Assembly: GCA_937927195.1 (NCBI GenBank)
Contig: CALBCY010000069.1
Location: forward strand, 1 to 64,000
Length of the DNA stretch: 64,000 bases
Reading direction: 5' to 3'
DNA from: an uncultured Chitinophagales bacterium
GTDB taxonomy: Bacteria; Bacteroidota; Bacteroidia; Chitinophagales; UBA2359
Under the pieces are notes generated by a model. The model ran no database searches and had not been told where the DNA came from. It worked only from the letters and a program-made list of their open reading frames with translations. Of the stretch, positions 29,501 through 54,368 are shown piece after piece. The translations under genes were made by a program, and so were the position numbers. The stretch's first letter is position 1, and each line of letters opens with the position of its first letter.

Positions 29501-29701
29501 ATGAGCAACCCATTCAAACAAATTACAGACAATGCCAATAAATCCCAAAAGAAATGGGAAAGGAAGGAAGCATCCGAACTAGTAGGAAGAAAATGTGAAG
29601 GTTGTGGTTCCGCAAGACCCAAAGACACAAATTTGACAACTTGTGATTATTGTGGCTTTAAATTTATGTCCATTGATGAAGAAATTAAAACGGATAAATA
29701 A
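29501..29701 (+). CDS. Small zinc-ribbon protein
   Basis: 66 residues from ATG 29501; 14 further residues from 29459 are unlikely. A lysine-rich N-terminus (NKSQKKWERKE) precedes a zinc ribbon with CEGCGSARPK and CDYCGFKF. No other domain is present. Its stop shares one base with the next start, so it is coupled to another zinc-ribbon protein. Role unknown; it may be an adaptor of the following module. Confidence 0.75.
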   Translation: MSNPFKQITDNANKSQKKWERKEASELVGRKCEGCGSARPKDTNLTTCDYCGFKFMSIDEEIKTDK

Positions 29702-30552
29702 TGTTCAATTTTTTCAATAAGAAACAAGAAAAAAAAGCCGAAGACCAAGCCGAATTTATTGAATTGGTAAAAAGGTGGGATGCCTTTCTAATCAACATTG
29801 AGGGCCGGTTTGAAGACTTGTTAAGTCATGCAGAATCTGCTGTAATGGACAATTTAGTAACTAGCAATTTTGACATTTTACCCACGACAAGAGCATGGAA
29901 TGGTATAAAAAGTCAGTTAATGGGGCTGATGCAAAAGATTGAAGACACATTTGATGACAATGTAAAACCAAAAATGCAAGCCTTCAAAGAAGATTATGAT
30001 TTGATAGATGAAAGTAAAAAAGGAACCCGATTGGCAGAATCAATTTACCATCGCATCAATCGATGTGAAATAGAATTGGAGGGCAAGTTGGCGCTTAAGT
30101 TCTATGATCATGCCATTCAATTTTTAAATGAAGATTTTAACTGCAGTCAATGTGGAGGAAAAGTAAATGCAAGAAATGATCTCTTTCGTTCACATTACCT
30201 TAGTTGTGATTATTGCAATACCGTCAACACATTTACTCCCAACTCAAAGGTAAATGAAATCCAAGGCTTTGCGATAGATAACATTGCAAAATATAAAGCC
30301 ATTCAAGAATGGGAAGAAATGGAAAAAGCTGAACAATTGTTTGGAGAAATTAGATGCCCACACGGAACAGAAGACAAAACGAATTACATAAATGGATTTA
30401 AAAGGAGGGAGGAAACGCTCCGCACCTATTGGAACAAATATTACAACGAACGCAGTCAGTTATTGCCTGAAACAAAGGCGAGCATTGAGTCAGATGTAGA
30501 AAACAAAATGAAGCATTTTTACTCAGAACGAAAACGAGAATTAAATTTTTAA
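29701..30552 (+). CDS. Helical protein with a zinc ribbon
   Basis: 283 residues. Amphipathic N-terminus MFNFFNKKQEKK, long helical region (about 15-145) compatible with coiled coil, a zinc ribbon at about 148-175 (CSQCGGK and CDYCNTVN), and a second helical part with a lone CPHG near 220. No signal peptide. The general plan, a helical membrane-associated-type protein plus zinc ribbon beside an SPFH gene, recalls the PspA-linked YdjG/YdjH group of Bacillus, but I see no direct homology signature. Unknown function. Confidence 0.7.
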   Translation: MFNFFNKKQEKKAEDQAEFIELVKRWDAFLINIEGRFEDLLSHAESAVMDNLVTSNFDILPTTRAWNGIKSQLMGLMQKIEDTFDDNVKPKMQAFKEDYDLIDESKKGTRLAESIYHRINRCEIELEGKLALKFYDHAIQFLNEDFNCSQCGGKVNARNDLFRSHYLSCDYCNTVNTFTPNSKVNEIQGFAIDNIAKYKAIQEWEEMEKAEQLFGEIRCPHGTEDKTNYINGFKRREETLRTYWNKYYNERSQLLPETKASIESDVENKMKHFYSERKRELNF

Positions 30553-30570
30553 TCAGTAAATAAAAATATT

Positions 30571-31170
30571 ATGGAAGCAATTAATGGAGTAACATTTAAA
30601 GATTATGCCTGTGCATCAGCCAACTTGGTGGCAGGAATGCCTATAGAGAAAATATGTGACGTATTAGGAATAGAAATGCCAGTTTGGGAGGCTACCAAAG
30701 ATGCCTGGAATAACAAAATGGCAGAATTATCGATGGAAGACATGAAGTTTTATGGAGAAGTTTTCACGAATCCAAAGCAAGGAAAATTTGCAAATGTGGA
30801 AGGTGGAGCTGCTGGCCCAGAAGTAGTTTTAGCCAAATACCCTGAATGGAGTGATACCATCAAAATGGAAAAATACATGGAGCATGCGAGTGCCGTTGGT
30901 ATTGACATCGACTTCGAAAAAGAGTTTGACATTTCTCTAACTGCCTATTCACAATTAGCAGGGCACTGGTCAGCCTATTACAAGGAGCATGTCGTTGATG
31001 TTCAAACGAGGTCATCAGAGCAAATTCTAAATGACGACTGGAATGAAGCGCAAGTAAAGGCCGGAAAGATAAGTGAAGAAAGAGATTCAATCGCTGAAAA
31101 ATGGGATGCACATTACAAAGAAGTTTATAAGAACACTGCCGCAAATGTAGCAGAAGACATCGAATTTTAA
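30571..31170 (+). CDS. DUF6620-like protein
   Basis: 199 residues, acidic, no signal or membrane helix. The N-terminus (INGVTFKDYACASANLVAG) and the repeated 'W' helices look like the DUF6620 family from Bacteroidota; this is from memory and tentative. It lies 18 bases after the zinc-ribbon gene and is followed by a strong terminator, so it ends the first transcription unit of the island. Confidence 0.55.
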   Translation: MEAINGVTFKDYACASANLVAGMPIEKICDVLGIEMPVWEATKDAWNNKMAELSMEDMKFYGEVFTNPKQGKFANVEGGAAGPEVVLAKYPEWSDTIKMEKYMEHASAVGIDIDFEKEFDISLTAYSQLAGHWSAYYKEHVVDVQTRSSEQILNDDWNEAQVKAGKISEERDSIAEKWDAHYKEVYKNTAANVAEDIEF

Positions 31171-31183
31171 TCCAATAAAATTC

Positions 31184-31231
31184 AAAGTATTGATGCTACA
31201 AATAGAATTTGTAGTGTCGATACTTTTTCTA
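31184..31231 (+). terminator. Strong intrinsic terminator
   Basis: A 20-base arm (31184-31203) pairs with 31207-31226 over its whole length if three G-U pairs are allowed, leaving a three-base loop. TTTTTC runs from 31224. It separates the DUF6620-like gene from the following genes and could also work on the other strand. Confidence 0.85.
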
Positions 31232-31264
31232 TTTATCAAATATAATAATCAATAAAACAGGTCC

Positions 31265-32458
31265 ATGAAAAATGTTTTACCAGCCTATCAAAGACCCATT
31301 TATTCCATAAGTGATCCAATAATCAATGTAGATGAATGGGAGAAAGCAACAGATGCTTTTGATGAAAAAAATTACAAACAATCGATAATACATGTCATCA
31401 ATTATGTAAATCCAAAGTTGTTGGAAAATATTGATTTAACAGGAAACATAAAGATTTCTCAAATGCAGGGAAGTGCAGAAATAAATATTGAAATTTCTGA
31501 GAATGGATTTTCTGTGCAAGCTCCTTTTCTAAAGATGACTGACAAAACCAACAAGGTAGCTCTTAAAAGGAAGATTGCCGAGGTCAATTTTCATCCTTTA
31601 ACCTTGGCACAAATCCGTCAGATTAATCATGATTTTTGGTTTGAGTTTGAGACAGAATTGGTCTTATGCAATCCACACAAAATTTATGATGTCTTAAAGG
31701 AGGTTTGTGTGTTGGCAGACGATTATGATGACCTGTTTATTGAAAAATATAAAGCGGAATTTTACAAAACACCAAAAGTAACGGCTTTATCTGAGGAAGA
31801 ATTGGTTCAGGTTTGGAATCAAATATCTAAGGTATTCGAAGATTACCAAAATTATTTTCAATTGTTCACAGAAAAACGCTGGGAAAATTTTAAATGGGAC
31901 ATCATAATGATTTCTCTATTGAAACTTTCTAACATGGCCTACCTAAATGGCAAACTACGATCAGATTTAATTGAGTATGTCAACCTAATGCTCGATCAAA
32001 ATATGGAGTTCAAAATGAGGGTTGATAAGGGGATCAATTTCATGAATCAGCTTGTAAAAAAATCCAAAGAAGAAATTTTAAAAAATGTATATCATGCTGA
32101 GCAATTACAATCAAATCGTTGGAGAAGTTCTGAAAAAATAATTTCTGAGAGACTTGAAAATTGTAAAGAACAAGTCGATAGTTACATGACCAGTGACAGT
32201 TTCTTCAATCTTTCCTATTACCTGCAATACACTTTTCTTAAACTCATCTATGATTACAATCTAAATGAGGATTATAGAAATGCAATCCATACCGCTCTTG
32301 AAAACGCAGCAGGACTAAGCCCTGAAATTGGATACAAAACGCTTGTTGACACCTTTTCTGATTTACTGAACGCAACCGTTAAAAAACCATTGCTCAAGAA
32401 CGAAGATGTAGTTACAAAAAAAGTCAAAAAAGGTTTCTTCGCTAAACTATTTTCTTAG
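31265..32458 (+). CDS. Uncharacterised helical protein
   Basis: 397 residues without signal peptide or membrane helix. The first 110 residues alternate beta and alpha elements, possibly a YbjN/type III chaperone-like fold. The rest is strongly helical and rich in Tyr, Leu and Asn, ending in a basic, hydrophobic tail VKKGFFAKLFS that could touch a membrane. I do not recognise a family. It lies 17 bases upstream of the protease gene and probably belongs to the same module. Confidence 0.6.
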   Translation: MKNVLPAYQRPIYSISDPIINVDEWEKATDAFDEKNYKQSIIHVINYVNPKLLENIDLTGNIKISQMQGSAEINIEISENGFSVQAPFLKMTDKTNKVALKRKIAEVNFHPLTLAQIRQINHDFWFEFETELVLCNPHKIYDVLKEVCVLADDYDDLFIEKYKAEFYKTPKVTALSEEELVQVWNQISKVFEDYQNYFQLFTEKRWENFKWDIIMISLLKLSNMAYLNGKLRSDLIEYVNLMLDQNMEFKMRVDKGINFMNQLVKKSKEEILKNVYHAEQLQSNRWRSSEKIISERLENCKEQVDSYMTSDSFFNLSYYLQYTFLKLIYDYNLNEDYRNAIHTALENAAGLSPEIGYKTLVDTFSDLLNATVKKPLLKNEDVVTKKVKKGFFAKLFS

Positions 32459-32475
32459 TACTTAAATTCAAAAAG

Positions 32476-33546
32476 ATGGAAAACAATATTAAAGATTCAA
32501 TTTACAAAGTCATCACTTCTTCTGGTTCAGGAACTGCTTTTAAAGTAGAAAACAAAGATTTTATAATCACCAATTACCACGTAGTAAGAGGCAATAAAAA
32601 AGTGGCCTTAGAGTCACACAACAAAGATCGATTTTTAGCGAATGTTGTTATGGTAAACACAAAACTAGATTTGGCATTTCTTCATGCTAATGAATTGCGA
32701 GATGCCAAAGGATACATCAAACTAAACCCTGCAACAGAAGTAAAAAACCAGCAAAAACTGTCAATAAATGGATTTCCATTTGGGATGCCTTATACAGTAA
32801 CTCAAGGAATTGTTTCTTCTACAAACCAACCGATGCTTGGAAGAAATTATTTACAAACAGATGCTGCTGTGAATCCAGGCAATTCAGGTGGTCCAATGTT
32901 AAATGAAAGTGGAGAATTGTTAGCTGTTACAACTTCTAAGTTCAAAGATGCCGACAATATAGGTTTCGGAATATTGGCTGAAGATGTCATGAAACAAGTA
33001 AATAACTTCACACTGCATGAGGACTTGTATCAAGTCAGATGTAACTCTTGTGATACATTGATTGCGAGTGAAACAGAGTTCTGTGAAAATTGCGGTGCAG
33101 ATGTTGACAAATCAGTCTTTGAAGAATTTGAGAAATCCTATTTCGCCGAATTTACAGAAACAGCGCTAGAAGAACTAGGCATCAATTCTATTCTTTGCCG
33201 AGCAGGCAGAGACTACTGGGAATTCTATCAAGGAAGTGCTCTAATCAGAATATTTGTTTATAAAAACAATTATTTATGCGCGACCTCTCCTTTAAATGAA
33301 CTACCCAAACAAAACTTAAACAGCTTGTTGGATTACATCAATTCTAATAAGGTTGCTCCATACATGTTAGGCTTAGATGATAATAAAATCTACTTATCCT
33401 ATCGAACACATTTGTCAGATATCTATTCAGATAAAAAAGAAGAAATCAAAAAACAATTGACTAACCTCGCTTTGAAGGCTGATGAATTGGATGACATTTT
33501 TGTAAAGGAATTTTCTTGTGAAATGTCGATAGAATCAAAAAAATAA
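32476..33546 (+). CDS. Cytosolic trypsin-like serine protease with zinc ribbon
   Basis: 356 residues. HtrA/DegP-like chymotrypsin-fold protease (about 5-175) with an intact triad: His35 in NYHVV, Asp65 in LDLAFL, Ser137 in GNSGGP. There is no signal peptide, so it should stay in the cytosol, unusual for this fold. A zinc ribbon follows (about 190-215, CNSCDTL and CENCGAD), then a C-terminal domain of about 130 residues (FTETALEELGI...) resembling YbjN/type III chaperone-like modules. No PDZ domain. The zinc ribbon and chaperone-like domain probably choose partners or substrates, perhaps the adjacent SPFH protein (inference). Confidence 0.82.
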   Translation: MENNIKDSIYKVITSSGSGTAFKVENKDFIITNYHVVRGNKKVALESHNKDRFLANVVMVNTKLDLAFLHANELRDAKGYIKLNPATEVKNQQKLSINGFPFGMPYTVTQGIVSSTNQPMLGRNYLQTDAAVNPGNSGGPMLNESGELLAVTTSKFKDADNIGFGILAEDVMKQVNNFTLHEDLYQVRCNSCDTLIASETEFCENCGADVDKSVFEEFEKSYFAEFTETALEELGINSILCRAGRDYWEFYQGSALIRIFVYKNNYLCATSPLNELPKQNLNSLLDYINSNKVAPYMLGLDDNKIYLSYRTHLSDIYSDKKEEIKKQLTNLALKADELDDIFVKEFSCEMSIESKK

Positions 33547-33551
33547 GTACA

Positions 33552-34541
33552 ATGAATGTATTCAATCAGTTTCGATCAGTCATTCAATGGGATACTCCAA
33601 ATGACCAAGATCTTTTCATAAAATTCACCAGCAAAGGAGAAGAAATTAAAAATGCTTCTACCCTTACTTTATTGGATGGTCAAGCATGTATTTTAACCTA
33701 CGAAGGGCAAATTGAAGGAATCTTAGAAGAAGCAGGTACTTATGATCTGAAATCTGAGAATAAACCCTTCATTACAAGCATTAAAAAATTCCTTCAATTT
33801 AAAGAAGGAAGTGAGCATTTGATGGGGATCTGGTTTTTCAGGAAAGCCGATATTCTAAATATGCGGTGGGGCACTCGTGTGCCAATTGCATATAAAGATC
33901 CAATTTACAAATTCCCAATCTTATTGACAGCTTTTGGTAACTATTCCATTCGAATTACTAAACCCAAATATTTTTTCACCAATATTTTAGCCGGTCAAGA
34001 AGTTTACTGCAAAAGTGACTTAAAAGAAATATTCATTTCCAGAGTGGTCCAACCTATCACTGATTATTTAGCAAATGCGAAATTTTCATTTCAAGAGATC
34101 GATGCAAATTTGGAAAGCATTGCTGCTATTGCCAGAGAAAGAACTGCTCCAATTTTTGAGGATTTAGGATTTGAAATCATTGATTTCAGAATAGAAGGTT
34201 CACAGTTTGATCGTGAAACATTGAATCGAATCAATGAAATTTCAGATGTCCAAGCAGAAGTAAATGCTGCTGAAATAGCAGGTGTCAATTTTGCAGAATT
34301 ACAAAAATTAAAAGCCCTTCGTGATGCAGCGAAAAATGAAAGTGCAGCAGGAATGGCAATGGGGATGATGTCTGGTTTGAACTTAGCCAACGATACCCAT
34401 ACCCCCTCAATTCAAAACAATGCACTTTCAAAGGATCAGTTAAAATCAAAACTCAAAGACTTAAAAGAGCTATTCGATGAGGATTTAATAACAGAGGAAG
34501 AATACCAAGACAAGCGAAAGGCTTTGATGGAAAAATTTTAG
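33552..34541 (+). CDS. SPFH-domain protein with C-terminal SHOCT
   Basis: 329 residues. Virion-core/YdjI-type SPFH protein: an N-terminal beta region with 'RSVIQWDTPNDQDLFIKF', the SPFH core to about 225, a helix rich in Ala (VNAAEIAGVNFAELQKLKALRDAA), an Ala/Met/Gly-rich linker, and a SHOCT helix pair at 295-329 (LKDLKELFDEDLITEEEY). SPFH proteins form rings or scaffolds at membranes; YdjI recruits PspA in Bacillus. Only five bases separate it from the protease gene, so joint function is likely. Confidence 0.85.
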   Translation: MNVFNQFRSVIQWDTPNDQDLFIKFTSKGEEIKNASTLTLLDGQACILTYEGQIEGILEEAGTYDLKSENKPFITSIKKFLQFKEGSEHLMGIWFFRKADILNMRWGTRVPIAYKDPIYKFPILLTAFGNYSIRITKPKYFFTNILAGQEVYCKSDLKEIFISRVVQPITDYLANAKFSFQEIDANLESIAAIARERTAPIFEDLGFEIIDFRIEGSQFDRETLNRINEISDVQAEVNAAEIAGVNFAELQKLKALRDAAKNESAAGMAMGMMSGLNLANDTHTPSIQNNALSKDQLKSKLKDLKELFDEDLITEEEYQDKRKALMEKF

Positions 34542-34571
34542 ATCATGGAAAATAAACGCTTATAATAGCAG

Positions 34572-35267
34572 ATGCTTATAAAAATTTTATTCGCTTTAAT
34601 AGGCTTGATTGCAGGCGGTATGTTTGGTTTGTTTGGAGTCTATTATCTTTGTGTTTTCATAGATTATTTGAATCCTCCAAAGCCGGGCGCTGGAATGGGG
34701 AGTATAGGATGGGTGTTTACCTTCGTAACCGTTCCCCTGTTTGCCATTATAGGGTTTACTTATGGCATAAAATTATCTTCTAACAAAATGAAAAACGACT
34801 TGGACTATCGCATCATTGCAGACGAATTGACTGGAAAGACCAAGCTCTCTCTCGTTGAAGATCAAGAAATCACCGATGTTGAAAAAGAATTGAATATAAG
34901 ATTCGAATCCGATTACAAGAGGTACGTGACTACTTACGGCATTGGAATTCTAGGCGGATCTTTCATTCGAATATATGCACCTTGGAGAATTAAAAATGAA
35001 AGGACACAATGGACAAAACGAATTACGAAGTTTTATTTTTGGAATGATAAAAATTTGAATAAAGACCAAGTGTTACAATCACTGATCATTGGCGATACGA
35101 TGGGTGGTGATGAAATTATATTTTATGCAAACCAATATTATGTATTGCCGCATAGCAAAACAGAAATATTTTCCATTGGTCAATCATTGAATGAGGCGAT
35201 TGAATGGTTGTGTTCTTCAGGAGTTTTAACTGAAGCTTTTAAGGAAAGAAACTTTGAACCGTTTTAA
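34572..35267 (+). CDS. Membrane-anchored SUKH (SMI1/KNR4)-like protein
   Basis: 231 residues. Two N-terminal membrane helices (about 2-26 and 44-66) and a cytosolic domain (about 92-225). That domain starts 'DVEKELNIRFESDYKRYVTTYGIGIL', the layout of SUKH immunity domains, and ends with a short helix 'SLNEAIEWLCSSG'. SUKH proteins usually neutralise nuclease toxins; no toxin gene is seen here. The assignment is from pattern, not from a search. Confidence 0.6.
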   Translation: MLIKILFALIGLIAGGMFGLFGVYYLCVFIDYLNPPKPGAGMGSIGWVFTFVTVPLFAIIGFTYGIKLSSNKMKNDLDYRIIADELTGKTKLSLVEDQEITDVEKELNIRFESDYKRYVTTYGIGILGGSFIRIYAPWRIKNERTQWTKRITKFYFWNDKNLNKDQVLQSLIIGDTMGGDEIIFYANQYYVLPHSKTEIFSIGQSLNEAIEWLCSSGVLTEAFKERNFEPF

Positions 35268-35271
35268 AGCA

Positions 35272-36441
35272 ATGAAATTTTACAGAAACCAAACTATGCT
35301 ATTAAAAGCAATAATTATTTTCCTGCATTTATCAACGATATTTTGCCTCTCTCCAATACTGCTCTTTGCAAACAATAAAAAACCATTGATGGAACAAATA
35401 TTTCAAGACATAAAAAAAATTGAGGAAGAATTTTCCAAATCATTTATTGAAGCTATCTCATCAAAATCAATAGAGGCTTGTGCAGACTTAGTCTTAAGTT
35501 ATGAGGACAACAGTACATTAGAAGTTGACTATGGCTTATCAGAAAAACGCTATAGAAAAAGATTACTTGAACAAAGTGAAAATTTTTTAAAAGGGCAGAG
35601 CAAATTTATTGACAAAAAAAATGCAGCATTAGAAAGTGCTATTTCTTTTGAAAATTTTGAAGAGATAAATACTTATGATTTCGAAATTCCAAAGAAACAT
35701 CCTGCATGTTTTATAAAAACCATTTCTATCACCATGAAAAAGCGATTGGTGGATGGTATTTTTTATCAAGTGGGATTTCAAATTGAGGATGCGGTTTTTG
35801 TTAATGGAAAAATTAAAATTAACAATCTATTTTCTGTTAGGATGCATGAAAGTTTTTGGGATGAAATTAATGAAGAGAATACTCCCTACCTATTAATTGA
35901 GGATAAAGCCAGTTTAAATGAAATCTTAGGTAACCACTCCGATAGAGAATATGCAGAAATTTTGGATCATTACAATAATTGGTACCTACATACAGGAGAC
36001 CTAGTTCTTGATAGCTATGAGGTCAAAGTCAATCTAATTGTAACAGGAAACTTAAAAATAAAAGAGCCAGTAACTGAAGTCCTGCACGAGTTGATAGTGT
36101 TAGGAAATACCTCTTTAAACACTTTATTTTTAGAAGAAACAAATGATGTTTTGTTTCTAGGGGGAATAGAATTTACCGTCGGGCTTTTTATTATGGATTC
36201 TGGAGCTTATCAAATATTTAATAGTCCGAAAGGCCCAATTATATTTGCCCAATCTGAAACAATAGAAGTTGAAAATACACAAAACATACTGTGCCTATAT
36301 GCTCCAGAGTTGGATAAAAATGGTGATTATTCTGAAATAATATTAGATGAATTTTGCGGCAAAGAGGAAGGTAATGAATATTTAGAAATTGAACTCATTA
36401 TCGAAACACTTCGAGCAGAAAGGCCAATTTTCAAGAAATGA
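35272..36441 (+). CDS. Exported protein with a beta-solenoid (polymer-forming-like) segment
   Basis: 389 residues from ATG 35272; the frame to 35254 overlaps the previous gene. A hydrophobic N-terminus (LLKAIIIFLHLSTIFCLSPILLF) suggests export or anchoring. Residues 70-190 look alpha/beta. Residues about 235-335 contain short beta strands of the 'GDLVLDSYEVKVNLIVTGNLKI' type, a right-handed solenoid pattern also found in the products of 42533-43249 and 43514-47836. The C-terminus is acidic. Function unknown. Confidence 0.6.
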   Translation: MKFYRNQTMLLKAIIIFLHLSTIFCLSPILLFANNKKPLMEQIFQDIKKIEEEFSKSFIEAISSKSIEACADLVLSYEDNSTLEVDYGLSEKRYRKRLLEQSENFLKGQSKFIDKKNAALESAISFENFEEINTYDFEIPKKHPACFIKTISITMKKRLVDGIFYQVGFQIEDAVFVNGKIKINNLFSVRMHESFWDEINEENTPYLLIEDKASLNEILGNHSDREYAEILDHYNNWYLHTGDLVLDSYEVKVNLIVTGNLKIKEPVTEVLHELIVLGNTSLNTLFLEETNDVLFLGGIEFTVGLFIMDSGAYQIFNSPKGPIIFAQSETIEVENTQNILCLYAPELDKNGDYSEIILDEFCGKEEGNEYLEIELIIETLRAERPIFKK

Positions 36442-36602
36442 AACTGATCATTGCAAAAAGAAAGATGACAGATCAAGGGTCGAACAAAGAATTTCGTTCC
36501 TAGATTGATCAAGACGGAAATCTTATAAGCTCAGAAGAATATAATGAGGATTTACTTCGGAATGCAGAAAATGGATTGCTATATTGGAATCAATTAAAGT
36601 AA
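36438..36602 (+). pseudogene. Short frame interrupted by an in-frame TAG
   Basis: ATG 36438 overlaps the previous stop as ATGA. The frame reads 21 codons (MKLIIAKRKMTDQ...), TAG at 36501-36503, then 32 further sense codons (IDQDGNLISSEEYNED...LLYWNQLK) to TAA 36600-36602. Both halves are in one frame and look coding. It is a nonsense-interrupted small gene, or two tiny frames; readthrough is possible but unsupported. Confidence 0.5.
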
Positions 36603-36631
36603 AATTATTGGAACAACAGATAAGACAAAAC

Positions 36632-37675
36632 ATGAAAACAGAAAATATCACATTATTTTACAAACAAGAAAAAAGCGACAAAATTTACAAAGCATCATTG
36701 AATGAAAAAGAAGGCCTGTTTGTAGTCAACTTTGCTTATGGTAGAAGAGGTGCTACACTTAAAACTGGAACAAAAACCCAGGCTCCAGTAGATTATGAAA
36801 AAGCAAAAAAAATCTATGACAAACTGGTTCATTCTAAAGCTGCAAAAGGTTATGTTCCTGATGCTGATAGTTCAGATTATGTTTACGAAAGCGATCAAAT
36901 AAAAACAGGCATCCATTGCCAATTACTGAACCCTATCGAAGAAGATTCCCTCCAGGATTTCATTGAAAGCGAGGAATGGTGGGCACAAGAAAAAATGGAT
37001 GGAAAACGAATGCTCATTCAGAAATCGGATGAAATAATTGCCATCAATAGAAAAGGTTTTTCTGTTGGTGCCCCGCAATCTATTATTGAAAGTGCCGCAA
37101 AATCAGATCGTACATTTATTCTGGATGGCGAAGCAGTTGGGGACTTTTTATTTGTTTTTGATGTTTTATCATTAGATGACAAAGACTTAAAAAGTAAAAC
37201 ATATAAAGAACGCTATGATTTGCTCATCAGTTTGGAGTTAACTGATGCAATAAAAATTGTTCCGACCTCAAAATCCAAATCCCAAAAAGAAGCATTGATT
37301 AATAAACTGAAATCAGATGGTTCAGAGGGAGTGGTTTTAAAAAAACACGATTCGCATTATCATGCAGGACGACCTAACAGTGGTGGGAACCAGATGAAAT
37401 TTAAATTTTATGATACTGCTACCGTAATTGTATCAAAAATTAATGACAAGCGAAGTGTGGGGATGACATTATTAGAAAATGGCGAGGAAATATTCGTGGG
37501 CAATGTTACGATTTCAGCTAACAAAGAGATTCCAAAAGAAAGAGATATTGTTGAAGTGAGGTATTTATATGCCTATAAAGGAGGCAGTCTTTATCAACCT
37601 ACATTTTTAAACAAAAGAACTGACATTGATGAAAAAGAATGTTTGTTAAACCAATTAAAGTATAAGAAAGAGTGA
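36632..37675 (+). CDS. WGR domain fused to an ATP-dependent DNA/RNA ligase
   Basis: 347 residues from ATG 36632 (the longer frame begins with TTG and overlaps the broken frame). Residues 1-75 form a WGR domain with NFAYGRRGATLKTG. The rest is a nucleotidyltransferase-type ligase: motif I EKMDGKRM with adenylated Lys121, RKG, motif III ILDGEAVGDFLFVFDVL, motif IV EGVVLKK, motif V QMKFKFY, followed by an OB-fold. All catalytic motifs look intact. WGR domains bind nucleic acid ends in PARPs, so this enzyme likely seals nicks in DNA or RNA. A direct WGR-ligase fusion is notable. Confidence 0.88.
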   Translation: MKTENITLFYKQEKSDKIYKASLNEKEGLFVVNFAYGRRGATLKTGTKTQAPVDYEKAKKIYDKLVHSKAAKGYVPDADSSDYVYESDQIKTGIHCQLLNPIEEDSLQDFIESEEWWAQEKMDGKRMLIQKSDEIIAINRKGFSVGAPQSIIESAAKSDRTFILDGEAVGDFLFVFDVLSLDDKDLKSKTYKERYDLLISLELTDAIKIVPTSKSKSQKEALINKLKSDGSEGVVLKKHDSHYHAGRPNSGGNQMKFKFYDTATVIVSKINDKRSVGMTLLENGEEIFVGNVTISANKEIPKERDIVEVRYLYAYKGGSLYQPTFLNKRTDIDEKECLLNQLKYKKE

Positions 37676-37814
37676 AAGCCCTTAACAAAAATGACTTGTT
37701 GGGTAAAATGAAAATTCAATTGCAAGGTCAACTTAAATCTAAATATTTTTTTGATGTATTCAAGATTAAACCTATTTCAATAATTTAAAATAAGCACTTT
37801 AATCATCAAACATC

Positions 37815-37830
37815 ATGAATGAATGAATGA
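37815..37830 (+). repeat. Four tandem ATGA units at a start codon
   Basis: ATG occurs at 37815, 37819, 37823 and 37827. The first three open only MNE-stop frames; the fourth starts the next gene. This may allow re-initiation, or be a slippage site. Confidence 0.6.
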
Positions 37831-38234
37831 ATAGATCAATAAACATAAAAAAATTAGAACCGACCAAGCACATGTTTGAATGGCTGGCTGAAAAACCATT
37901 CGAAACAATGCTTAATAATATTGACAGCATCCTTTCCAAACAAGTAAAAAATGCTAGCATACAACATTTCGAAGCTATTAGTGAACCTCAATGGTTGAAA
38001 GGAGGAATACATGATGAAAATAATGTAAACAAGGTTGTTTTAGTAAGGACTGGAGTTGCATTTGAATTTAAACTTACGGTGATTAGCCCTGATGGTAAAG
38101 AACTACTAAGCGGTGTCTATTCTTGGGTAAGAAAAAAAGTAGGAGATCAATTTTATTCCCAAACTTGGTTTGACATCAATGGAACACTTGATGAATTTGG
38201 AGACAAAGGAGCTTTGGCAGAAAGAATTTATTAA
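37827..38234 (+). CDS. Uncharacterised protein, intact member of a locally duplicated family
   Basis: 135 residues, no signal or membrane helix. The central part has beta-strand character (VVLVRTGVAFEFKLTVIS) and the C-terminus reads 'QFYSQTWFDINGTLDEFGDKGALAERIY' in type. The decayed frame at 41498-41731 aligns to two regions of this protein, showing that the family was duplicated here. Small, cytosolic, likely immunity-like by context; no known domain recognised. Confidence 0.6.
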   Translation: MNRSINIKKLEPTKHMFEWLAEKPFETMLNNIDSILSKQVKNASIQHFEAISEPQWLKGGIHDENNVNKVVLVRTGVAFEFKLTVISPDGKELLSGVYSWVRKKVGDQFYSQTWFDINGTLDEFGDKGALAERIY

Positions 38235-38243
38235 AAGAATAAA

Positions 38244-38768
38244 ATGGCCATATATTTTGATATTATTATTCCTTTGGAAAAGCTGTTCAAAAGAATAACA
38301 GCACTAAAGCTGAATGAGCAGTTGGATGGCTATTGCGGTTATTTCAATATAAAAACAAAGGACAGCAATATAAAAATAGATTTATCAAATTATGACGCCT
38401 CTGTTTTCAATCATCCTGATTACAGCTTTTTCTTTTTGATTTCAAAACAGGCAAACTTCAAGGCTGAAAAATCTCCATATGATGATTCTTTCTTTCCTTT
38501 CACTATTGAAATGACTGGTGGGAGAGAAACCGAAACAGAGATAGAACAACTTAGGTTTAGAGGACTTGCAAAACAACCTGACAAAGAAACCGACAAAGCT
38601 TTTCAGAAATTACAAAGGAGTTTTAACAAGGATTCAAATATAGGGAAAGGTTTGCATTGGGGGAAGCATTTTTATAAAAGAAAATATTATGAAAAAAATA
38701 AAAAAAAAATAGTTTGGGGAAATTTTAAAAATAGAGGTGTTGGCCCAATCCCAAATAATGAAGATTAG
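38244..38768 (+). CDS. Uncharacterised basic protein
   Basis: 174 residues. The first 120 residues look alpha/beta; the C-terminal 50 are very basic (HFYKRKYYEKNKKKIVWGN), suggesting nucleic-acid or phospholipid contact. No family recognised. It lies nine bases after the preceding gene, so the two are likely co-transcribed. Confidence 0.6.
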   Translation: MAIYFDIIIPLEKLFKRITALKLNEQLDGYCGYFNIKTKDSNIKIDLSNYDASVFNHPDYSFFFLISKQANFKAEKSPYDDSFFPFTIEMTGGRETETEIEQLRFRGLAKQPDKETDKAFQKLQRSFNKDSNIGKGLHWGKHFYKRKYYEKNKKKIVWGNFKNRGVGPIPNNED

Positions 38769-38812
38769 TATCTTTTTGAATTCTTGAGTTAAGGTTAAGA
38801 AAAAATTTAACT

Positions 38813-39379
38813 ATGTGTAGATATGCCATGACAACCTACAAACCACATTTTGCTTGTTTTGATTGTCGCAAGACCTTTAAAAGAAAACTACTAGTAGACA
38901 TCAATAAAGATAAGGCCTATGATAAAAACCATTTGGGAAAAGAATCAAAATGTCCAGATTGTGGAGAACTTATGGCCAATATGGGTTTAGATTTTGAAGC
39001 TCCAAAAAAGACAAATGTAAAAGCTTGGAAGCATTTGAGTAGTTTGTATGAAACAGGAATCACCTTCCATTCTTGTGGTTGTGGTGGGCCAGGATATGTC
39101 CCAAGAGACCAGCAAGAATTGATTGATCATTTCACTGAAATAAAAAAAGGCTATGTAGAACATCGACGATTTTGGTCAAATCGAAAAATTTCATCGAAGA
39201 AACAATCTCAACAAAAGAAACAATTAGATTGGAAAGAGAATGGAAAATTCATTTGTAGAATTCCATCTAAAATGAAAATCGGTACTAGAAAAAACAAATC
39301 AATTGACATTGCCGATGCAATACAATATTGGTTGGATAAAATTAAAGAAATAGATGGATATATTGCTAGTGTTCAATGA
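38813..39379 (+). CDS. Zinc-ribbon-like protein (MCRYAMTTYKPHFACFDC family)
   Basis: 188 residues. Two CxxC pairs (FACFDCRK at 14-17 and SKCPDCGEL at about 47-50) make a zinc ribbon, followed by HSCGCGGPGY. The C-terminal half is basic and helical. I remember the conserved beginning 'MCRYAM.TYKPH.ACF.CRK' from hypothetical proteins in many bacteria, with no known function. The Cys arrangement suggests a metal-binding adaptor or nucleic-acid binder. Confidence 0.7.
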   Translation: MCRYAMTTYKPHFACFDCRKTFKRKLLVDINKDKAYDKNHLGKESKCPDCGELMANMGLDFEAPKKTNVKAWKHLSSLYETGITFHSCGCGGPGYVPRDQQELIDHFTEIKKGYVEHRRFWSNRKISSKKQSQQKKQLDWKENGKFICRIPSKMKIGTRKNKSIDIADAIQYWLDKIKEIDGYIASVQ

Positions 39380-39574
39380 ACATGATTCAAGCTCATTGAA
39401 AGCTGATGCTATTTTCTTGAACAAACTTTAATCATAAACAATTAAAAAAAAGGCTCAATCTGCAGATTGTACAGAATTTCACAAATAATAACACTCCTCT
39501 GTTTTGGAAAATTCCAAAAAGAAAGCCTAAAACTGATTGATAAAAAATAGGAGCTGAGTATTTGAAAAAACAAC

Positions 39575-40324
39575 ATGACACAAACTGATAAATTAATTAC
39601 AAACCGAGAATATCTTTACTGTGAAAAGAGATTCAAAAACCTAAAGCGGATCGTTTATTGGCTTTGGTCTATTTACATTTTGATTGTATTGGTAAGTTTG
39701 CCTTTTATTTTTTTGGAAACACCTTTTTTTTTGAAATGCTTTGGCTTTGGGCTTTTATTTATAGGATTGGCTGGCGCAGTTTACTTCAAAATGAGCGGCT
39801 ACAGAACAAAATTCATAATTGATGAACAGCGCTACTTCTGCCAAGGAAATTTGAAATCAGAAACGAAGTATATAGCAGGAAAGCATATCAATCAATACTA
39901 CATAAATGATAATTTACTAATGATACCTAGTGGGATCGAAATGTATTGGGCAGAATTAGTTGATAAATATAGGCATCAAATAGTTTCTGGTCAGTTCGGT
40001 ATCTGCAGGCAAACCACTAAAGACAAAGTTATTTTTTTTTATACACCCCTGCAATTAGAAGATGATCTCTGCATAGACCAAGCAATACAAAAACATGGTA
40101 AAAACTTCTTAAGGTCTTCTGAATTTGGGATGTACTACTATTTAGCAAAATTTGTTTCCTTACCCTTCCTTTGGTTTTTTATCTGCTTTGGCATTTTCGA
40201 TTCATTAGATTTGATTGGAATTATGTTTTTCTTTCTGATTCCGGGCTGGTTTGCAATCTTATTATTATATCCCCAATATTTCCCTTTGGATAATAGCAAA
40301 ACTGTAGAAAAACTTAGATGCTAA
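39575..40324 (+). CDS. Integral membrane protein with PH-like central region
   Basis: 249 residues. Two N-terminal helices (about 26-47 and 50-70), a central soluble part of about 110 residues rich in beta strands, and two C-terminal helices (about 188-210 and 213-235). The topology puts both termini and the central part on the same side. No family recognised. The 195-base gap before it holds the palindrome CAATCTGCAGATTG near 39455 but no gene. Confidence 0.6.
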   Translation: MTQTDKLITNREYLYCEKRFKNLKRIVYWLWSIYILIVLVSLPFIFLETPFFLKCFGFGLLFIGLAGAVYFKMSGYRTKFIIDEQRYFCQGNLKSETKYIAGKHINQYYINDNLLMIPSGIEMYWAELVDKYRHQIVSGQFGICRQTTKDKVIFFYTPLQLEDDLCIDQAIQKHGKNFLRSSEFGMYYYLAKFVSLPFLWFFICFGIFDSLDLIGIMFFFLIPGWFAILLLYPQYFPLDNSKTVEKLRC

Positions 40325-40380
40325 AAAGAAATAACAAGTAAAATGGTTAGTAAAAACATTTACACAAGAAAACATCTGAA

Positions 40381-41379
40381 ATGAAAATAATAATTCTTTT
40401 GATAGCATTGTTTTTTGCTACAAATATATTGGCCCAAATTGACCCCCTTGTTCATGATAAAACAGCTACTGTTATACAAAGTAGTTGGTTGGAATCAATT
40501 AAGACAAATAAAGGAATTTATAAAAACGGAGAGCCATTTAAAGGCGATTTTTTTCTGGTTAATAAAAAAATAGAAAGCCTATCTCGCTTTGAAAATGGAT
40601 TTAGAACAGGTGACCAATATTCACTCATAAAACATGAAGACAGTTCCAGTAATTGTGAGGTCATACTTTACCAAAATGGAAAAGCTTTTGAAGGTTCAGA
40701 ATTGAAATATGAAAACGATTATTATCAATTGCATGAATATGAAAAAGGACAATTAAAAAAAATAATTGTTGATGCCAATAATCCATATGCGATTCCAGAG
40801 GCGGTTATAAGGTTCAAGGAAAACGGTTTTACTACAAATATTTACGATCATGAAAAAAACAAACAAATCTTAAACAATAAACTTACCTATTCGAACAAGA
40901 AAAAGACGAATGGTTCAGTAACATTTTTTGATAACGAAAAACCTGCGGGCAAACTACTTTTTAGGAATAATAAAATCACCGATTTAAACTTTGAGTTTGA
41001 GATAAAGGATGCAGAAGTAAATATTGCTTTAAACAAAGAAGGAAGTTTAATTACTGTAATCAAAGAGCCCTATCTCGTATATAAATACTTTCCAATTTTT
41101 GAATTCCCTACTCCCTTAGGTCATCTTGATTTCATCAATTTACCACGCCATCTGTTAATCTTGGATGGGAACGGTAGTTTGTATTTAGATGATGATATGA
41201 AGGAAGCTATTTCGGACTTTGAAATCAAAAATGGTAATTTTCATAGTGGGGAAATAATAGATTACAAAACGGATATGAACACGTATTCCTATATGAAATA
41301 CGAAGAAGGGAAGGAGATTGAATTAAAGGAGGGACTTTCAAAAGAAGCCTTAATCAAACATTTAGAAATAAGGCAATAA
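40381..41379 (+). CDS. Exported protein with MORN/YwqK-like repeats
   Basis: 332 residues. Signal peptide (IIILLIALFFATNILAQ) followed by irregular repeats of the 'NGEPFKGDFFLV' and 'YENDYYQLHEYEKGQL' kind, the style of YwqK/MORN_2 proteins ('toxin-antitoxin system YwqK family' in databases). It shares plan and repeat style with the product of 59044-60249, so the two bracket the central part of the island. It is likely periplasmic or surface-located; no enzyme domain is visible. Confidence 0.62.
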   Translation: MKIIILLIALFFATNILAQIDPLVHDKTATVIQSSWLESIKTNKGIYKNGEPFKGDFFLVNKKIESLSRFENGFRTGDQYSLIKHEDSSSNCEVILYQNGKAFEGSELKYENDYYQLHEYEKGQLKKIIVDANNPYAIPEAVIRFKENGFTTNIYDHEKNKQILNNKLTYSNKKKTNGSVTFFDNEKPAGKLLFRNNKITDLNFEFEIKDAEVNIALNKEGSLITVIKEPYLVYKYFPIFEFPTPLGHLDFINLPRHLLILDGNGSLYLDDDMKEAISDFEIKNGNFHSGEIIDYKTDMNTYSYMKYEEGKEIELKEGLSKEALIKHLEIRQ

Positions 41380-41497
41380 TAAATTTAACGAGAAGTATCA
41401 ATTATTTAAAATTATTCCATTCCAGTTTTAACTAAAAAAAATACGTTAATCTTTATGCTCTACCCTACTATTGGTCAAACAATAACAAGAAACAACA

Positions 41498-41731
41498 TTT
41501 GGAAGAAGCGAAACAGAAGCAGATTTATAGGATGCTACATCAGCCATCGATGCAAGGCTGCTTCCCAATCTAAAAAAAGCAACACTTCAATTTGATATCC
41601 AAAAATAGAGGTGATAATAAAATTTAAGGATAGGACAAGAAGAAGAATTTCATTCCCAAGCGTGGTTTCACACAAATGATACATTGGCTAAATTTGACAA
41701 TGAGAGAAATTTGAAACAACGATTTTTTTAA
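41498..41731 (+). pseudogene. Decayed copy of the 37827-38234 gene
   Basis: One frame over 78 codons with several stops. The segment 'AIDARLLPNLKKATLQFD' aligns with 'NIDSILSKQVKNASIQHFE' of the intact protein, and 'QEEEFHSQAWFHTNDTLAKF' with 'GDQFYSQTWFDINGTLDEF'. The roughly 50 residues between them are missing, and stops (TAG, TGA, TAA, TAA) cluster at that joint (41609-41620). The rest of the 41380-41762 gap shows nothing further. Confidence 0.6.
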
Positions 41732-41762
41732 ACACATTTCAACATTTATATTAACTAGAATA

Positions 41763-42548
41763 ATGCACCTAAATCAAACGAACAAAAAAACATTTGACTT
41801 TCTCCAGCAATGGCAAAGTGAATACCATATTTACAATTTTGAACAATTACACAGTATTTATTTTTATGAAGAAGAAAGTGAATACTTGGAACGAAATTTT
41901 GATGAAGACTTGACAGAACACATCACGGATAAATTTGTCACACTAGGTATTGATGGAGCTGGAGGATCTTATTGTTTTTGGCATTATCCAGGTTTAGAAG
42001 GAGAAGCTCCAATTGTATTATTGGATAGTGAGGGAGGTTCTAAATTTTTAGCAAATAGCTTAAACGATTTCGTTTGCAGAATGATAAATGAAATCGAATT
42101 TTGTGGTGGCTGGATTTGCGAAGGACAAGACCCTGAAGAAGAATTGGAGAATGAGTTATACGACTTAGCGAATAATTACAACGAAGAAAAAGGCAAGTCT
42201 ATTTCGGAAACAACAGCAAAGGATTTGCTCATAGAAGAGAGAAAGTTGTTTAAAGAAAAACTATTGCCACTCATTACTTATAAAACCAGAGAACAGACTC
42301 AAGAAAAACTACATCCTAGTTTTAATCTTTTTGTCACTAAAGCAGAAATCAAAACATGGGAATTACCACTCATTAAAAAATATGGCAAAAAGGATTTGCA
42401 TGAATACGATAAGTTTTATGAATGGTTGGAAAAAATCATTGAGACGGAATATTATGAAGCCAACAAAGCAAGTGTCATTCAAGTGGTAAAGGATAATTAT
42501 GCAACGAGCTATAACACGCAAAAATTTCAAGCATGGATAAAAAGTTAG
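41763..42548 (+). CDS. SUKH-like protein
   Basis: 261 residues, acidic, cytosolic. A SUKH-like core near residues 35-110 has 'FVTLGIDGAGGSYCFWHYPGLEG', then 'PIVLLDSEGG', then 'ANSLNDFVCRM'. The same DGxGG...W...PI...SEG...A.s..dF series recurs in the products of 50984-52807 and 56387-58984. The C-terminal 140 residues are helical and include a Trp-rich segment. Its end overlaps the next gene by 16 bases, pointing to coupled translation with the solenoid protein. Confidence 0.62.
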   Translation: MHLNQTNKKTFDFLQQWQSEYHIYNFEQLHSIYFYEEESEYLERNFDEDLTEHITDKFVTLGIDGAGGSYCFWHYPGLEGEAPIVLLDSEGGSKFLANSLNDFVCRMINEIEFCGGWICEGQDPEEELENELYDLANNYNEEKGKSISETTAKDLLIEERKLFKEKLLPLITYKTREQTQEKLHPSFNLFVTKAEIKTWELPLIKKYGKKDLHEYDKFYEWLEKIIETEYYEANKASVIQVVKDNYATSYNTQKFQAWIKS

Positions 42549-43249
42549 ACCAGCAGTTTCAACTAATTTCAAGGCAAGAAGCGAATGAACAATTTAAGAT
42601 AGACTCGTATTGGTTTGACGGAGATCCATTCGATCCAATGCTAATCTTCCTACACAAAGGAGACATACTAATTGAAGGCGATTTGAATTTTGATTGGTTT
42701 CTGCATCGTTCCTATACTCTATTTGAAGAATATCCAGGAGCACTTTCTTTTCTTCTTATTATTGATGGAAACTTGACGCTGGATGGGGTAATTGAGAGTC
42801 CATATCATCCTTGTCTGTTTGTAACAGGAACAATCAAAACGAAAGATGCTTTTGAGAATCTTTGGGAGTTAACAAAAAATAAAAAAATAGAGGCTCCGTC
42901 TTTGAAGATTGATTTAGACATTGAGCAAATGGTTTGTAAAATTGACATTAATACTTTTACCAGGATTAATTTCAAAAAGATGGTAAACAAAATACCATTA
43001 GTACATCAGGTTGTTTTTATAGAAGCGACAATGAAGAGAGGGCTTATTGCTAGAGAATGTGTGGATGGCATGACCATCTGTCAATATATGCTATTGCATT
43101 GGGTAGAGCAAGAGTATAAAGGGACTAAAAAAGAGAAATTAATATTGGGTAAAAAAGTAGCTCAATTCTATGGTTTGTCAGTTAGAGATTTTAGAATCAA
43201 TGGAACTCCACCACCTAGCTTGTTACCCACCATACAGAAGTATTTTTAA
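42533..43249 (+). CDS. Beta-solenoid-containing cytosolic protein
   Basis: 238 residues. Residues 30-110 carry solenoid-type strands (FLHKGDILIEGDLNF, LLIIDGNLTLDG, LFVTGTIKTKD), close in style to the segment of the giant WGR protein encoded next. The C-terminal 100 residues are helical with 'ARECVDGMTICQYMLLHW'. No signal peptide. The next in-frame Met is 36 residues in, inside the solenoid, so the overlapping start is kept. Confidence 0.6.
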   Translation: MDKKLDQQFQLISRQEANEQFKIDSYWFDGDPFDPMLIFLHKGDILIEGDLNFDWFLHRSYTLFEEYPGALSFLLIIDGNLTLDGVIESPYHPCLFVTGTIKTKDAFENLWELTKNKKIEAPSLKIDLDIEQMVCKIDINTFTRINFKKMVNKIPLVHQVVFIEATMKRGLIARECVDGMTICQYMLLHWVEQEYKGTKKEKLILGKKVAQFYGLSVRDFRINGTPPPSLLPTIQKYF

Positions 43250-43250
43250 T

Positions 43251-43379
43251 GGCAAAGAAAACTTAAAATTTGACCACTATTAAAAACAGTGGGATAAGCT
43301 GTTAAACAAATATGTTCAAGCTAAAGACCTTTTCAATGCCTAGTTTAACGAATATAAATTGGCATTGCACACTTGTTAA
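43251..43379 (+). pseudogene. Decayed coding remnant with three in-frame stops
   Basis: Directly after the previous stop one frame reads coding-like sequence (NGKENLKFDHY, KQWDKLLNKYVQAKDLFNA, FNEYKLALHTC) separated by TAA 43281 and TAG 43341, ending TAA 43377. The last part resembles DNA at 50870-50907 (ACGAATATAAATT...ACACTTGT). The gene family is unknown. Confidence 0.35.
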
Positions 43380-43513
43380 TTAAAACTTATTTTATCAAAA
43401 TACTAGGCTATTTTTATTAAAATATAGAGGTGAATAAAAATGAATCATTACCTCCTAGTAATCTTGAATAAAATCCTCAAGACTGCGAAAACCATTCCAA
43501 GCAATATCCAATT

Positions 43514-46500
43514 ATGAAGTACTTCAAACATATAAAAACAAAACAATTTCTGTTTATTGATAGTAAGCCGCTTTGGTTTGAAACATTCCGATTTAATATG
43601 GTTCGCAACCAGATAAAAACAGATTATGAATATTCAGAAAAAGACAATAAAAAAGACTTAGCCAAAAAATTGGCATCATATATTTCAAAATATGAAAAGA
43701 AAGGCTTTGAAGAAAAAGAGATCACCCAACCGGCAATAGATAAGACAAATGCATTTTGTGAAAAAATAGAAATAGGCAAATCATATTATTTCCATATAAA
43801 AAATACAGTCTCACTAATGAAGGAGAAGGTGGTGGAAGTAAAAGTAACCAAAGACCCTACAAACATAGAAAAATACAGAGTTTGCGCATTTGAAACCGAT
43901 GGATATGACGACAAATCTTCCTTTTCTACCCTCTCTGATTACCTTAATGGCAGCATTAGATTACATTGCGAAGAAACGAATGACTTTGAAGTATTAGAAA
44001 CCCTTATGCCAAAACTATGGATGCTATTCACATTGGGATTCGAATGGGTCACTGAACAATTCATTTTAGAGAAAATCGCAGGAAAGTCCATAAATTTAGA
44101 ACAAGAATATGAAGCAGATATCTATAAACAGCAACATAGTTTTTCAGCTGCTGAATCCTGCGTAAAGGTCAACTTTTTCGAGGAGGACTTATTAGTTGTC
44201 ACTCACAATTATTTTCTTTTAGAAGAAAAAATTATTGGGACGAAACAAATATATTCTACCTTCCAGACAATTGAAGAGTTTAAAGAAGGAAGGAAAAACA
44301 TTGAAACATATTATAAAGATTCGGACAGCCTTAAATGGTTTATGAGCGAGGTGGACTTCAAAAATAAATACCCTGTTACAAAAGATGCCATTCAATATTT
44401 TCAAGCACCTGAACTGATCAAAGCAACAAGGCCCAATTTTCCTATAAACGTTCCTCAGGGTAAAATTGACTTTCCTATAGGCTCATTTTATGCAAATCTA
44501 GTTAATGTCAATCGACTTTACTTTTATGTCAATGAAGAAGGGGACGATCCAATGGAATGGAAGGCTGCATTCATAGTACTCAAAAATTTGGAAACCTCTG
44601 TTTACTTAGCCACCAAAGTTTTTACACTGAAAAATTTCAATAAAATATATGCAAATACTGAAGAATCTGAGGCGTTAAAATATTCAAGTGATTTGGAAGA
44701 GTTTTTCAAAAAGAAAGCGAAATCTTACAAAAAAGCAAAGCTCAAACCATACGATACTGAAAAAATAATCGAACTTCTCAGTCAAAACAACTTGACAGAT
44801 TTAAACAATCAAAAATCTCTAGAATCTTTCTGCTTCCAAGGGAATTATTTTAAGCACATAGTAGACTGCTACAAAAACTATGCAAACATTTGGATTGCCG
44901 GAAATGACAAGATTCATTATTTACAATTCTTTAAAGATGAAAAATCCAGAATGGAATGGCTAAACAAAACAAGGCCAGAATCAACAGTTGATTTATATCC
45001 AACTGAAATGAAAAGAATCAAAGATTTCATCGACCACATCAGCAGCAATGACGATGCTTTCAAACTCAAAGAAAATTTGTCAAACAACAATGCCAAACTA
45101 AAAGAATATTTAAAAAGTGACTACAACAAGAAAAGATTCCTAAAAACGAATTGTGAAATAATAGAGGACGACTGGGAAGTAGATGGTGACCTTATTTTGT
45201 CAAGGAACCAATCTCTTTTGCTTCGTGGAAACCTTAAAGTAAATGGAACATTATTTTTCACCTCCTCTTCCAATCAAAAATATTCAAACAATCCATTTCT
45301 TATCATTGAAGGCAATGTCATTGTTCAAAACTTATTAATGAATGGTGGCTTTGAATACCTCCAAATAGATGGAGATTTTATAGTAACAGAACTTGCTGCA
45401 TGTTCCTATTCCAAAGACCGTAATAATTTTAACATCAATGGATCGGCTGAAACAAATATTTTATTACATAGAAATAAAAACGCGTCAAGTTTTAAACCTT
45501 GCTTTGATTTCAAGAAAGAAGTAGGTCCATTCAGCAATGCTGTTTTAGAACCAAGTATTTTCAGCAAAGACAAATACGATTCGATGAATGTCGAGCACCC
45601 TATTGTTTTTGATTTTTTAAAAGAAGGCAAGAAATTCCTTTCAGATAACATCGAAGAAACGGTCGTCAATTTAGATGAATATTACCAACTTGAATTTGAG
45701 CGGAGAATGAAAAATTGGGGAAACTTTTATCCCGCTTATGCAGGCTGTGAGGAACTAGGTATCTCAGAAGATAATGAAATAAAAGGAAATGGCATTTATC
45801 CTGGAAGTGGTGATTGGGTTGTCAATGACTTAAGGGGTAAAAGTGGCACCTATGGAGTTAGCCACGAAGATTATTCTATTTGTAAGTTAAAAGTAAAAAT
45901 GCCAACTAAATTTGGAATCGACTATAAGCAAAAGCCACTAAAATTAATGCTTAGTGCTGAAGAATTGATGAACAGGTATATTCGAATTTCAATGCTGTAC
46001 ATGAACTGGGCACATAGAAAAACAGTGAGTTTCGAAATTGAAAATACAGACGAAGTTTTTCAAAAAGAAAAAGAGGTGTTCAAGGATGATCCCCACTTAG
46101 CACTGTATTGGCTAAATCATTTTGGGGCTACATTGGACCAACGTTATCATGAAGTCGTTAAAATAATTGAAGTAAACAAGTTAACTGAGGAATTAGAAAT
46201 ATTAAGAGAACCTTTGGCCTTCTTCAAAAGAACCAATGCCTTTTATGACCTGAAAATAGGAACTAGCTCCAGTGGTGAAAAAGACTTTGAAAATTTATTT
46301 TTAAAACGAAGGTCATTTTTAGTTTACATAGAACAAGTCTATAAAAATTACAAACCAGAAAACTTAGAACTGTGGTGGAAATCAATATGCATATACCCTA
46401 AGGTAGAAGAAAATTTAATAGTGCGGATGCGTTGGTTAAAAAACAACTTAAACAAATGCAACAATTGGTCAGATTTTGAGGAGTTAATTAAAGACGAAGA

Positions 46501-47836: not shown

Positions 47837-47888
47837 AAAAAAACATGCAATTTACATTAGTAAATTATAATTAAGCAAAAAAAACACA

Positions 47889-48458: not shown

Positions 48459-48555
48459 ACAAAGAATATGCATAATATCCAGCCAACTACCATCGTAGCC
48501 TTGTGCCTAATTGGGACAAACAAATGAAAAGTAATTGTACCACATAAAAAATAAA

Positions 48556-50260: not shown

Positions 50261-50331
50261 AAGCCATGACAACCCTATTAGATTCATCAGCATCCCAACC
50301 AATTTTTAGGCAATCATGAAAGCTTATAAAG

Positions 50332-50820: not shown

Positions 50821-50983
50821 AATATCCAAAGCATTTCATATACAATGTTGCCAATATACCTTCGACAAATTTTACGAATATAAATTTGCCAACAACACTT
50901 GTCAATTGTCCAATATTTATCTCAATATTGTAGCCTAAATTGCATTGGCAATTTAGTTCTAAGGGCAATTGAAATTATTCAAA

Positions 50984-53349: not shown

Positions 53350-53360
53350 GAATTTAGACC

Positions 53361-53681: not shown

Positions 53682-53710
53682 CTGAAATAATTTAAGCAAA
53701 ACGCATTGCA

Positions 53711-54361: not shown

Positions 54362-54368
54362 AACAAGG

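Follow-up and report, generated by a model that had tools for sequence, protein, structure and literature searches.

A widespread WGR-ligase fusion as a candidate mobile ATP-dependent DNA ligase

Introduction

The WGR domain is the module by which the PARPs sense 5'-phosphorylated breaks. What would such a domain do when it is joined to an enzyme of the kind that closes them? The question is raised by an open reading frame in the contig of an uncultured Chitinophagales bacterium, analysed here over a stretch of 64,000 nucleotides (the window), whose product carries a WGR domain in front of an ATP-dependent ligase core (Table 1). The reading preferred here, to which a probability of roughly two in three is given, is that the protein would be a mobile accessory ATP-dependent DNA nick-sealing ligase in which the WGR acts as a break-binding module, replacing the usual DNA-binding domain. 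We infer the ligase activity, the DNA substrate, the function of the WGR and the role of the protein from what is observed, namely its sequence, motifs, architecture, conservation and genomic context.

Table 1. Features of the WGR-ligase and of its surroundings in the window
Feature	Position	Strand	Remarks
WGR-ATP-dependent ligase fusion	36632..37675 (stop codon counted)	+	347 aa
WGR domain	36665..36865	+	residues 12-78, core YGRRG at 36-40; PF05406, PDB profile and fold matches
Adenylation (nucleotidyltransferase) domain, motifs I to V	36965..37405	+	PF01068; NCBIfam and PHROG DNA-ligase matches
Motif I EKMDGKRM	36989..37012	+	residues 120-127, catalytic Lys121
C-terminal OB-like region	37415..37672	+	beta-strand-rich in the AF2 model; Foldseek alignment with DNA ligase NTase-OB cores
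Motif VI-like RxD	37616-37624	+	RTD, residues 329-331 (R329, D331)
A+T-richer island	29701..60249	main genes all +	GC about 0.32-0.34 versus 0.355-0.376 outside
Neighbour, 395 aa	35254..36441	+	no Pfam family; 67% homologue directly 5' of the ligase in L031
Neighbour, 135 aa	37827..38234	+	no Pfam family; L031 homologue overlaps the ligase stop codon by 4 nt
1440-aa protein, C-terminal WGR	43514..47836	+	66% homologue two genes after the ligase in L031

Gene and domain layout

The gene probably starts with the ATG at 36632, since close homologues begin at that position; an in-frame TTG is located at 36584, 48 nt 5' of it, and the opposite strand of 36632-37675 is full of stops. The first-pass annotation had described a WGR domain and a ligase with intact motifs in one protein, and the profile searches that it proposed bear this out. 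Both Pfam families are matched above their cut-offs, PF05406 (WGR) over residues 12-78 with E 1e-6 and 29.2 bits versus a cut-off of 22, and PF01068 (DNA_ligase_A_M) with E 3.6e-18 and a score above the curated cut-off; the quoted motifs are found in the protein, and their residues are conserved in 87 relatives. PF09414 (RNA_ligase) likewise scores above its curated cut-off, with E 1.5e-11. Motif I is followed by DGE (residues 165-167), FD (176-177), EGVVLKK (232-238) and QMKFKFY (254-260), and the protein contains the sequence features that define the ligase superfamily: the KxDG motif with its lysine, motifs III, IIIa, IV and V, and an OB-like region with motif VI. The WGR family is defined by a PF05406 match above cut-off together with a W/Y-G-R core, and both are found.

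The Pfam OB models gave no match in the C-terminal region, which indicates that the OB-like region is divergent in sequence. A beta-clamp-binding motif suspected in the C-terminal QLKYK was dropped, since this segment lies inside an ordered part of the AF2 model and does not fit the usual consensus for such motifs.

Distribution and conservation of the fusion

Full-length relatives number at least 75 and come from chromosomes, megaplasmids and large phage contigs. The genome contigs scanned contributed 76 loci, spread over Verrucomicrobiota, Thermodesulfobacteriota, Thiotrichaceae, Gallionellaceae, Planctomycetota, Actinomycetota and Bacteroidota, other groups being represented by single members. 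Relatives covering at least 80% of the protein are present in 16 plasmid records, with hosts that include Tsukamurella, Variovorax, Mycolicibacterium, Mycobacterium avium, Pseudomonas aeruginosa and Acidisarcina, among others, and the jumbo phage Tunturi_5 carries one as well. Viral contigs returned nothing with a single protein as query and 13 loci with an alignment of six rows, on contigs of up to 479 kb. Within Bacteroidia the fusion is rare, one genome out of 395 sampled being positive at E <= 1e-30, namely that of the window itself; two further genomes among close relatives have the fusion at 65 and 63% identity. The general rarity implied by the first-pass annotation did not hold. The fusion is widespread, and public records, in which the architecture can already be seen, list it under the names 'WGR domain-containing protein', 'RNA ligase family protein', 'ATP-dependent DNA ligase' or hypothetical protein. 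Among the top-listed results of literature searches, whose coverage leaves out most subscription journals, there was no functional study of it.

The two halves of the protein are retained together. PF01068 was matched in 75 of 75 relatives scanned and the WGR in 74, and in the alignment of 87 rows the ligase residues K121, E167 and E232 are invariant, with K237 and K256 kept in 86 rows and K258 in 84; F176 and D177 are likewise invariant or nearly so. In the C-terminal part R329 is found in all rows and D331 in 84, and in the WGR part G37 and G40 are present in 87/87 and R38 and R39 in 82/87. The canonical tryptophan of the WGR is replaced by a tyrosine, Y36, and this position is Tyr in 76 rows and Phe in five. 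Since both domains and the catalytic residues are kept across the relatives, the fusion is a stable and old architecture of about 350 residues; the same architecture in many independent genomes excludes chance or an assembly artefact. In the tree, whose inner branches are in many cases weakly supported, the Bacteroidota rows group as one clade adjoining Thermodesulfobacteriota and Thiotrichaceae, and the plasmid and viral rows are scattered, as would fit a mobile family. Damaged copies were also seen: in one Gallionella bin a copy cut short (L102, 8001-8423) and one with an internal stop (L085, 8001-9071) are found along with an intact copy (L098).

The ligase core

The AlphaFold2 model of the full protein has a mean pLDDT of 92.5, and its best 50 fold matches in the PDB, obtained with Foldseek, are all DNA ligases. 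They include the LigD ligase domain, African swine fever virus ligase, human ligases I, III and IV, archaeal ligases, Lig E, and the T4 and Prochlorococcus ligases, Lig E (6gdr) having the highest target TM-score, 0.68. The best NCBIfam match is an NHEJ DNA ligase domain, and that of PHROG an ATP-dependent DNA ligase. Membership of two named families was not supported, since the score was 68 bits versus a cut-off of 228 with TIGR02779 (NHEJ ligase) and 31 bits versus a cut-off of 200 with NF006592 (PRK09125 DNA ligase), the model used for Lig E.

An RNA-repair ligase, sealing RNA breaks left for example by a toxin or an immune nuclease, would explain the PF09414 match, which is shared by 57 of the 75 relatives scanned, as well as the RefSeq records titled RNA ligase family protein. 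This is highly improbable, given that PF01068 scores better and is present in every member, that the PDB sequence profile search, like the best fold matches, gave DNA ligases only, and that the genomic context is one of DNA metabolism. In addition, an OB region with motif VI is typical for DNA ligases and capping enzymes rather than for Rnl-type RNA ligases. An RNA ligase family member would match PF09414 and have no DNA-ligase OB; here the profile matches, but the OB-like region is present and PF01068 is the better match.

The WGR domain

Modelled alone, the WGR domain has a pLDDT of 85.4, and its best 26 fold matches are all PARP1 or PARP2 chains containing a WGR, with weak E-values (best 0.04) and probabilities of 0.96 to 1.00. 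In PARP2 the WGR grips the phosphorylated DNA end via Trp151, Lys130, Lys183 and Tyr201, and Arg153 touches the nucleotide adjoining the end (PMC8190142). A profile of the domain searched against the PDB matched PARP3 and a Bacteroides protein, 2ra8. Through the PARP3 alignment Trp151 corresponds to Y36, Lys130 to K17, Lys183 to K69 and Arg153 to R38, Tyr201 being beyond the aligned part; this mapping to PARP2 numbering depends on the PARP3 alignment together with the residue correspondence between PARP3 and PARP2. Among the 87 rows, K17 is conserved in 86 and R38 in 82; K69 is found in 85, the remaining two having Arg, and 81 rows have Tyr or Phe at position 36. The near invariance of these equivalents is the main sequence evidence that the WGR has kept an end-binding role; the domain would help the ligase to find or hold nicks. 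The earlier proposal was that the WGR would steer a nick-sealing enzyme, and a steering to 5'-phosphorylated breaks is, in the light of this correspondence and of the PARP WGR fold match, a reasonable idea.

The replacement of the canonical Trp by Tyr could be taken otherwise, as the mark of a WGR that has drifted to protein-protein contacts and senses no breaks, the enzyme then being a generic accessory ligase. In bacteria, WGRs are often joined to TPR, LRR or DUF domains for which no DNA role is known, and the several WGR proteins encoded around the ligase might contact one another. Such a drift is nevertheless very unlikely, because the phosphate-binding and arginine positions remain near invariant across phyla, which favours retained binding, and because the WGR is matched in all but one of the relatives scanned.

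Genomic neighbourhood in other genomes

A DnaN-like sliding clamp is encoded near the WGR-ligase in 29 loci. Of the 24 Verrucomicrobiota rows 20 have it, mostly as the first or second gene 3' of the ligase. PD-(D/E)XK nucleases are found in 15 loci, RadC in 11 and the YqaJ exonuclease in five, identities that were confirmed with Pfam on examples. On three large viral contigs, genes for a clamp, DnaX and RNR- or TMK-like (thymidylate kinase) proteins lie nearby, and some plasmid copies are located close to ParB, SSB or PRTRC genes, a replication initiator or RNase HI. It is above all in Verrucomicrobiota, Gallionella-like bacteria and one phage group that clamp and nuclease genes flank the ligase; such neighbours are missing from the loci of Bacteroidota, Thermodesulfobacteriota and Thiotrichaceae. 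As the gene is found in replication and recombination modules of megaplasmids, large phages and Verrucomicrobia, its job would most likely be the repair or completion of the DNA of the element that carries it.

The island of the window and the question of immunity

In the window the ligase gene belongs to a gene-rich island, probably acquired, that encodes SUKH, SUFU, DUF4240-WGR, WGR-TPR, SPFH and trypsin-like proteins together with the 1440-aa protein with a C-terminal WGR. On a Saprospiraceae contig (L031) the 395-aa gene, the ligase, the 135-aa gene and the 1440-aa WGR protein occur together with 55 to 83% identity, and on a Flavobacteriaceae contig (L080) the ligase lies near homologues of the SPFH, 397-aa and trypsin-like genes of the window. 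Some neighbours thus recur in Bacteroidota, and a local functional partnership is possible.

Other features of these loci deserve mention. The SPFH, 397-aa and trypsin/zinc-ribbon set of the window (31265-34541), which recurs in L080 at 54-69% identity, is a possible stress or conflict module. The SUKH-like genes and a SUFU gene lie at 34572-35267, 41763-42548, 56387-58984 and 48535-49212, and no recognisable toxin domain was found in the island, which encodes SUKH, SUFU and DUF4240 proteins; an island of the polyimmunity type would be an array of several immunity genes lacking a toxin. The three further WGR proteins of the island, the 1440-aa protein and those of the WGR-TPR (50969-52807) and WGR-DUF4240 (54464-55162) types, have WGR domains that resemble each other more than that of the ligase. 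A conserved three-gene operon (about 203, 236 and 455 aa), at 379-3113 in L080 and found also in L035, L120 and L121, ends with the gene of another ATP-dependent ligase, distinct from the WGR-ligase and extended at its C terminus; it adjoins the WGR-ligase in L080 and L035, and the L120 and L121 stretches have no WGR-ligase adjacent to it. A C-terminal WGR-like domain, suspected by eye on this second ligase of L080, was dropped after profile comparison gave a probability of 1.9%.

The first-pass annotation placed the gene within an immunity-like island. The SUKH, SUFU and DUF4240-WGR genes are indeed there, but a tie to immunity across the family found no support. According to an immune reading, the WGR would recognise foreign or retron-type DNA ends, and the ligase would be the effector or the self-repair partner in the island. 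To the immunity-type genes of the island may be added the L080 locus, where the ligase is accompanied by the SPFH, 397-aa and trypsin-like homologues and where a long ORF resembling a helicase, taken here for a restriction-enzyme subunit, lies nearby. PADLOC also labels the protein with parts of type XIII retrons, WGR_XIII on the WGR domain (1e-27) and HEAT-ARM_XIII along the whole protein (1.8e-21), and contig C163 of this genome carries what looks like a complete type XIII retron (L125 1566-6292, L127 1204-2739), made of a 1023-aa WGR protein (WGR_XIII 5.7e-246), a 549-aa SWIM protein (SWIM_XIII 2.9e-222) and a 511-aa reverse transcriptase. The ligase is not beside this retron, however: the only PF00078 reverse transcriptase of the genome is on C163, another contig than that of the ligase, and the analysed flanks of the WGR-ligase relatives contain no retron WGR or SWIM partner. 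Nor is there a clear enrichment of type XIII retrons, strong SWIM_XIII matches being found in five of 50 WGR-ligase genomes versus about nine of 100 relatives (raw counts from an unmatched sample). In a comparison with L134-L143, the HEAT-ARM_XIII model (PDLC02920) matches both retron WGR proteins and WGR-ligases and hence seems mixed. The retron partnership to which the PADLOC matches had pointed is thus unsupported by co-occurrence, by the flanks and by the model. Neighbours in most other loci are replication and recombination genes or unrelated ones, and a place of the ligase in an immunity system is, on balance, doubtful. Independently of this question, the HEAT-ARM_XIII model may mislabel WGR-ligases as retron parts.

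Proposed mechanism and significance

As an accessory nick-sealing enzyme the protein would be a ligase of minimal type, with an adenylation and an OB domain, in which the N-terminal WGR would take the place of the DNA-binding domain of larger ligases. ATP would adenylate Lys121, the AMP would be transferred onto the 5'-phosphate of a nick or break, and sealing of the bond would follow. Bound to the 5'-phosphorylated break, the WGR would keep the enzyme, or the two DNA ends, in place. In the genome of the window this would be an accessory copy within the probably acquired island. The WGR and the ligase core could be rivals for a single 5'-phosphate; one way to share would be offered by two nicks, one on either side of a break, as in PARP2 bridging.

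The bridging of two 5'-phosphorylated DNA ends by PARP2 WGRs is also the model for a bolder proposal, in which a single protein joins ends: the WGR would hold the break on one strand and a ligase core, either its own or that of a partner molecule, would seal the other, resulting in double-strand break joining independent of Ku. Such end joining is unlikely; if true, it would serve megaplasmids and large phages. The nick-sealing reading itself brings together a break-sensing module and a break-closing enzyme in a stable form of about 350 residues across bacterial phyla, plasmids and phages. Its mechanism is directly testable, and through it the binding partners of bacterial WGR domains could be tested in a simple way. 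It would also represent a new way to bring a minimal ligase to DNA, and an enzyme of practical use may come of it.

Comparison with known systems

Full-length WGR-ligases are already in RefSeq/GenBank (for example WP_162571076, WP_163670447 and XOB77504); they have the same architecture at about 31-46% identity over 95-100% of the length, and the annotation seen gives no functional description for any of them; most are on megaplasmids or a jumbo phage, whereas the window copy is in a Bacteroidota genome. The type XIII retron WGR protein (PADLOC WGR_XIII) has a WGR 46-51% identical to that of the ligase, but it is about 1000 aa long with HEAT-like repeats, has no ligase domain, and its gene is accompanied by those of a SWIM protein and a reverse transcriptase. 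Among the ligases, Lig E (PDB 6gdr, 8u6x, 4d05) has, like the WGR-ligase, a nucleotidyltransferase and OB core of similar size; sequence similarity is weak, and Lig E has no WGR domain. The LigD ligase domain (PDB 1vs0, 6nhx; TIGR02779) gives the best profile and fold E-values and has motifs in common with the WGR-ligase. LigD acts with Ku and carries polymerase and nuclease domains, which are absent from the WGR-ligase. The WGR domains of PARP1, PARP2 and PARP3 correspond to that of the WGR-ligase in fold and in DNA-contacting residues, with Tyr in place of Trp, and the partner differs, this WGR being fused to a ligase and not to an ADP-ribosyltransferase.
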